Virus record (IMG/VR): IMGVR_UViG_3300025132_000021
Coordinates: 96,343 to 160,342 of that record
Strand: one strand, 5' to 3'
Origin: a virus
DNA: 64,000 bases
Part shown: positions 59,059 through 59,249 of the stretch, piece by piece
How the letters are laid out: every line of letters starts with the position of its first letter
Numbering within the stretch: position 1 is the first letter of the stretch
The notes under the pieces: generated by a model
Told to the model about the DNA's origin: nothing
What the model saw: only the letters and a program-made list of their open reading frames with translations
Database searches by the model: none
Translations under genes and position numbers: made by a program

Positions 59059-59249
59059 TGGAGCCAACTTTGAGTAGTCTGACTGATTGCGTATTTCTTG
59101 TTTTGTGATTTTTGCGTTTATTTGTTTCGTTGATTGTTTTATTTGTTAGAGTTTGAAGAAAGATGAAAATTGTTGAAAGAAGAAACATGAGGCTTGTTGT
59201 AATAGGTTTTGGCTGATTTGCACCAACCCAGAATGTTTCGGAGGCTCCA
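59059..59249 (+). ncRNA. Candidate noncoding RNA, about 190 nt
   Basis: The predicted transcript starts with TGGAGCC (59059-59065), and a perfect complement GGCTCCA lies at 59243-59249, followed by a T-rich stretch (TCCTTTTATTCCTT) suited to archaeal termination. The interior is extremely C-poor: a T/G-rich first half and an A/G-rich second half that can pair (for example GTTTC with GAAAC). No ORF longer than 16 codons begins at the start (a GTG frame is possible). Well supported as a transcription unit, but function and exact fold are unknown. Confidence 0.5.

Follow-up and report, generated by a model that had tools for sequence, protein, structure and literature searches.

Two candidate noncoding RNA genes with matching promoters and ends in a large archaeal virus

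A 160-kb archaeal virus appears to carry two short RNA genes, here called nc1 and nc2, that have the same kind of promoter and the same ends. Because nc2 has its own promoter, a stable fold and compensatory changes in a related virus, we regard it with high confidence, on in silico evidence, as the gene of a structured RNA. The case for nc1 as an RNA gene is good, if less strong; given its promoter, its ends identical to those of nc2 and the absence of an ORF, it is probably a paralogue of nc2 that shares the ends but not the interior. The two would thus probably form a small family of virus-made RNAs that is not listed in Rfam. As a whole, they are best explained as two closed-end, trans-acting regulatory RNAs, an account to which we give slightly less than an even chance.

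RESULTS

The virus and the genomes compared

The window is the whole stretch of 64,000 nucleotides that was analyzed, bases 96343-160342 of the 160,342-bp virus record IMGVR_UViG_3300025132_000021 of IMG/VR (G000). DP2 of DNA polymerase D (window 10282-13848) and a DP1-like protein (G000 19245-20588) were recognized by reading, and G000 seems to encode both subunits of the family D DNA polymerase. Since DNA polymerase D, TFB and a weak MCM match are encoded, we judge the virus, on its gene content, to be archaeal. Among annotated phage records, neither PolD (DP2 included) nor the nc sequences had a match; the magroviruses of marine archaea have been described with a family B polymerase (PMC10768690).

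The relative G001 (IMGVR_UViG_3300046163_000066, 166 kb) is 72% identical to G000 in DP2 and 83% in NrdJ, and G002 is a fragment of a near-identical strain of G000. The inverted terminal repeats of G000 are perfect over 99 bp (1-99 and 160244-160342, the latter being window 63902-64000), and those of G001 extend over at least 650 bp with 2 mismatches; with such repeats at their ends, both look like complete linear genomes. The packaging-type ATPase of G000 (64730-65914) resembles HerA/DUF87 more than it does a clear terminase, and for nine other large proteins no PHROG match to the head or tail was obtained. One tRNA was detected in each genome, tRNA-Ala(TGC) at G000 80312-80385 and tRNA-Pro(GGG) at G001 127034-126957.

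Two side observations concern gene content and relatives. On the minus strand (window 52275-54936), three similar genes in tandem look, on reading, like C5 cytosine DNA methyltransferases. A contig of 61 kb (L135, G007:C1; PBOB01000001.1), assigned to the MAG of an Acidiferrobacteraceae bacterium, is related to the G000 virus, having a 51% identical ATPase and the same promoter box, and was probably mis-binned as bacterial.

A promoter box that leads to no open reading frame

In G000 and G001, the box TTTAAGTA lies exactly 30 nt upstream of the ATG in 81 of 112 box-led ORFs. This spacing is the pattern of leaderless genes, and +30 is therefore the expected transcript start. The leaderless promoter is very uniform genome-wide (e.g., window 1425-1457), and the letters after the box are often TCAG, GTCG or GTTG-like.

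Thirty nucleotides from the nc1 box, which overlaps the end of an upstream 97-aa ORF (stop codon TGA at 59039-59041), lies TGGAGCC, not an ATG. An earlier reading of the letters alone (the sequence-only reading) had predicted from the box at 59029 a start at 59059 without an ATG, and both parts of this prediction hold, with the 30-nt spacing now known as the norm in the two genomes. Its letters and coordinates for TGGAGCC (59059-59065), for the complementary GGCTCCA and for the T-rich stretch that follows were likewise right (Table 1); TCCTTTTATTCCTTATT stands directly after GGCTCCA. Among the strict boxes outside genes in G000, those of nc1 and nc2 are the only ones leading to no ORF, and both have TGGAGCCAAC at +30. 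The 7-nt closing arms of nc1 alone are not beyond chance; of 632 positions tested at box-like sites, 18 (~2 to 3%) had an exact partner within 40 to 260 nt.

Table 1. Coordinates of the features discussed (window positions unless a genome is named)
Feature	Position	Strand	Remarks or basis
TATA-like promoter box of nc1, TTTAAGTA	59029-59036	+	Sequence; same box 30 nt before ATGs
nc1, predicted RNA gene of 191 nt without an ORF start at its 5' end	59059-59249	+	Orphan box, shared ends
5' terminus of nc1, TGGAGCCAAC	59059-59068	+	5' arm of predicted closing helix P1; identical in nc2
GGCTCCA of nc1	59243-59249	+	Predicted 3' arm of P1; identical in nc2
T-rich 3' flank of nc1, TCCTTTTATTCCTTATTA	59250-59267	+	Sequence
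100-nt segment with the strongest GC skew in the 160-kb genome	59119-59218	+	Genome scan in 100-nt steps of sequence
Possible 3' stem-loop of nc1, GAAACAT (59182-59188)/ATGTTTC (59233-59239)	59182-59239	+	Not significant, z -0.5
nc2, 80 nt	G000 34179-34258		Box at 34149; directly behind nrdJ
nc2 of G001	G001 127105-127039	-	Same place, behind nrdJ

A second locus with the same promoter and ends

A DNA self-search of G000 returned a 43-nt match at 34146-34188 that comprises the promoter and start of nc2. There, TATAAGTA is followed, 30 nt from its first base, by TGGAGCCAAC, then by 63 nt and GGCTCCA, and the promoter leads to neither an ATG nor an open frame. Promoter and start of nc1 and nc2 are identical at 35 of 51 positions, the best value among 141 box-like sites (mean, 20.9; standard deviation, 4.1). 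Box spacing, TGGAGCCAAC, GGCTCCA and a TATTCC in the 3' flank (5 to 6 nt past the 3' arm in nc2) are common to the two loci; common sequence is evident at the ends and none in the interiors, and the predicted pairing of nc1 with nc2 was no better than that of shuffles (94 of 200).

nc2 has a strong predicted fold (z -5.07 and -5.15 in two runs), and its counterpart in G001 gave z -3.49. In G001, TTTAAGTA lies over the nrdJ stop codon, 30 nt from TGGACTCC; nc1, nc2 and G001 nc2 all have the box at exactly this spacing. Both nc2 copies have the same predicted architecture, with an 8-bp P1, a 1-nt 3' bulge, P2, a P3 hairpin and a 15-nt CU-rich strand. All 15 stem pairs compared by script between the two sequences on which the compensatory changes rest are kept, 7 of them through two-sided and 1 through one-sided change. 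Among 139 promoter-like sites in the two genomes, the nc2 loci also have the longest helices starting exactly at +30 (17 and 15 pairs; the next has 13). The proposal of the sequence-only reading, a noncoding RNA whose 5' end is its closing arm, thus gains from the probable paralogue nc2 and from the compensatory changes in G001 nc2, and it loses on the fold of nc1 itself (see below).

These loci could instead be 3'-end elements of the upstream mRNA, that is, structured 3' untranslated regions, or 3' fragments produced by processing, with a role in transcription termination or in protection of the mRNA end; the box would then belong to the stop-codon region. A stop codon does stand immediately before nc1 and before nc2, the box and the end of the upstream ORF overlap at all three loci (nc1, nc2 and G001 nc2), and nc2 is a strong hairpin. 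However, in all three cases box and spacing are of the type found at this virus's gene starts, nc1 folds poorly, and such a structure is missing from other nrdJ genes, those of more distant relatives; we consider this explanation unlikely.

The 3' end of nc2 raises another alternative, a tRNA-like end or tRNA precursor that would be processed by RNase P or the CCA enzyme or would act as a decoy for tRNA ends. nc2 ends in GGCTCC-A-CCA and G001 nc2 in GGGTCC-A-CCA, so that an acceptor-like stem followed by A-CCA is present in both copies, and in G001 tRNA-Pro(GGG) sits directly behind nc2, after the 4 nt CCAC. Yet D and T arms are lacking, ARAGORN detects a tRNA at neither nc1 nor nc2, the Rfam tRNA model does not match G000 nc2, no tRNA lies behind G000 nc2, and nc1 ends in A-TCC and lacks the CCA. 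With this evidence, a tRNA-related identity appears doubtful. The sole significant Rfam match near nc2 is the neighboring tRNA-Pro of G001, which is separate from it; otherwise, Rfam 15 returned chance-level matches at nc2 and no family match for the nc1 region.

Composition and folding of nc1

The sequence-only reading had called the interior of nc1 almost free of C, with T/G-rich and A/G-rich halves and an asymmetry unlike that of the neighboring genes. The first description is accurate for 59100-59199 (4 C, 25 G) and too strong for the whole interior, which has 9.6% C. The halves are as described (56% T and 21% G in the first, 35% A and 26% G in the second), and the asymmetry is indeed unusual, the core of nc1 having the highest absolute GC skew of the 16,025 100-nt windows across the 160-kb genome.

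This extreme skew, together with the inverted TGGAGCC/GGCTCCA arms, would also suit a DNA element, in which the arms serve in binding, recombination or replication and the skew is a property of the DNA. Such an element would not account for the constant distance of exactly 30 nt between promoter and 5' arm, and the pairing kept in G001 includes G-U pairs, which fit an RNA better than a fixed DNA site; we regard a DNA element as very improbable.

The predicted fold of nc1 is weak. The segment 59055-59255 gave z -0.49, and 63 of 200 shuffles folded as well; the sequence-only reading had itself named a fold energy like that of shuffled sequence as an outcome that would speak against the candidate, and this was the outcome. 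On neither strand was the global fold of nc1 better than shuffles. The 5' 123 nt folded worse than shuffles (z +1.9) and are therefore predicted to be mostly unpaired.

As for coding capacity, the longest plus-strand ATG ORF inside nc1 has 17 codons and starts at 59163; no plus-strand ORF of 30 aa or more was found inside nc1, and the interval showed no conserved ORF. A micropeptide or decayed gene, be it MKIVERRNMRLVVIGFG as encoded on the plus strand (59163-59216) or a 44-aa ORF on the minus strand (59054-59188), has in its favor that these frames are open and that, by our reading of the sequences, one of the three substitutions between the strains is synonymous in the 17-codon frame. However, no clear Shine-Dalgarno sequence precedes 59163 by eye, ORFs of such lengths are expected by chance, both strain changes in the 44-aa frame read as nonsynonymous, and nc2 is without an ATG. 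We find a coding origin very unlikely.

Distribution of the two RNAs

In the collections searched, the RNAs are carried by G000, the strain fragment G002 and the relative G001 only. The one nc1 homologue found, in G002, differs by 3 substitutions without an indel in 191 nt; since this rate is like that of its surroundings, the copy adds little on selection. No diverged nc1 homologue was found in these collections, and the G001 sites that hold homologues of the two neighbors of nc1 are without nc1. The more distant nrdJ relatives L049, L050, L052 and L053 have no RNA behind nrdJ, and the contig of a third relative, G007:C1, shows no such RNA in the part that it covers, which matches about 43 to 110 kb of G000.

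A looser pattern gave 28 matches in IMG/VR, of which only the already known G001 and G002 loci qualified. Three candidates were rejected. One IMG/VR match to the promoter-plus-end pattern (L014) is a chance match inside a coding region; arms at G001 116399/116474 have no box at the needed spacing and lie within a stretch matching a G000 protein; and an orphan box at G001 149771 has no closing stem and a fold of z -0.4. This last box, on the minus strand, has no ORF start at +30 and is followed by AAAGGAGG and a long open frame that has no start codon; the gene may be leadered or frameshifted.

DISCUSSION

We propose that nc1 and nc2 would each be transcribed from a TATA-type promoter of their own, placed as for a leaderless gene. 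The UGGAGCC start would pair with the GGCUCCA end and close the RNA, a feature well supported for nc2 and extended to nc1 from the shared ends. The closing helix may hold the ends together and protect or tag them, leaving a mostly single-stranded interior on offer for pairing with other RNAs. In nc2, this interior would comprise a hairpin and the 15-nt CU-rich strand, able to pair with Shine-Dalgarno regions of genes inside operons. The interior of nc1 would be a long, nearly C-free stretch, first U/G-rich and then A/G-rich. Both RNAs would act in trans during infection as antisense-type regulators. That their role is trans-acting regulation rather than another RNA function is a tentative reading, to which we assign about one chance in three.

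Genes inside the operons of these viruses frequently carry Shine-Dalgarno-like leaders; among ORFs that lack a box, 63 of 124 in G000 and 53 of 162 in G001 have one. The CU-rich strand of nc2, picked from four segments for this comparison, prefers such start regions over control regions weakly in both viruses (41 and 92 of 1,000 shuffles were as good), with the caveat that pairing with purine-rich sites is to be expected of CU-rich strands anyway. Pairing of nc2 with Shine-Dalgarno sites is thus weakly supported.

The predicted closing helix is identical within one virus (TGGAGCC) and altered by compensation between viruses. More speculatively, and at a probability we would put rather low, the RNAs may belong to a family whose members share the closing helix and have interiors that can be exchanged; the helix would give a single virus factor its handle, and the interior would be a swappable guide or bait.

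A structural role in the virion must also be weighed. In phi29, the loops of the pRNA are complementary and interlock. nc1 and nc2 might similarly be packaging or virion RNAs that help a ring ATPase load the linear genome, which would agree with the inverted terminal repeats of both genomes, the encoded HerA-like ATPase, the position of nc1 4.75 kb from the right end, and the putative packaging RNA reported from an archaeal virus with terminal repeats (PMC5882107). However, nc2 has two open stretches that are each CU-rich and lack complementarity to one another, the fold of nc1 is not significant, nc2 lies 34 kb from the end, and there is no Rfam match. A packaging role is, in our estimation, quite unlikely.

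If these RNAs are confirmed, they would constitute a small, well-delimited family with exactly predicted ends in a large, little-known group of PolD-encoding archaeal viruses, and such viruses would make dedicated RNAs from the same type of promoter as their leaderless mRNAs.

The adenovirus VA RNAs are short, are closed by a terminal stem, have promoters of their own, and are RNA polymerase III genes of an animal virus. There are one or two of them (PMC9145648), and nc1 and nc2 would resemble them in all but the polymerase and the kind of virus; no homology is claimed. The action proposed for nc2, base-pairing at the ribosome binding site of mRNAs, resembles that of a trans-encoded small RNA of Methanosarcina mazei, for which there is in vitro evidence that it covers such a site (reviewed in PMC3432209); that RNA is the product of a host gene, whereas nc2 is a virus gene whose pairing is weakly supported in silico. 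Proposals of noncoding RNAs from archaeal viruses are few; our literature search turned up one, in the Ampullaviridae, where a putative noncoding RNA of the Acidianus bottle-shaped virus has been proposed to act in packaging (PMC5882107). As there, a noncoding RNA is proposed here for a linear archaeal double-stranded DNA virus with inverted terminal repeats; the two cases are likened by description only, the Acidianus virus having a single RNA in a 23.8-kb genome and the virus described here two RNAs with the same ends in a genome of 160 kb that encodes PolD.
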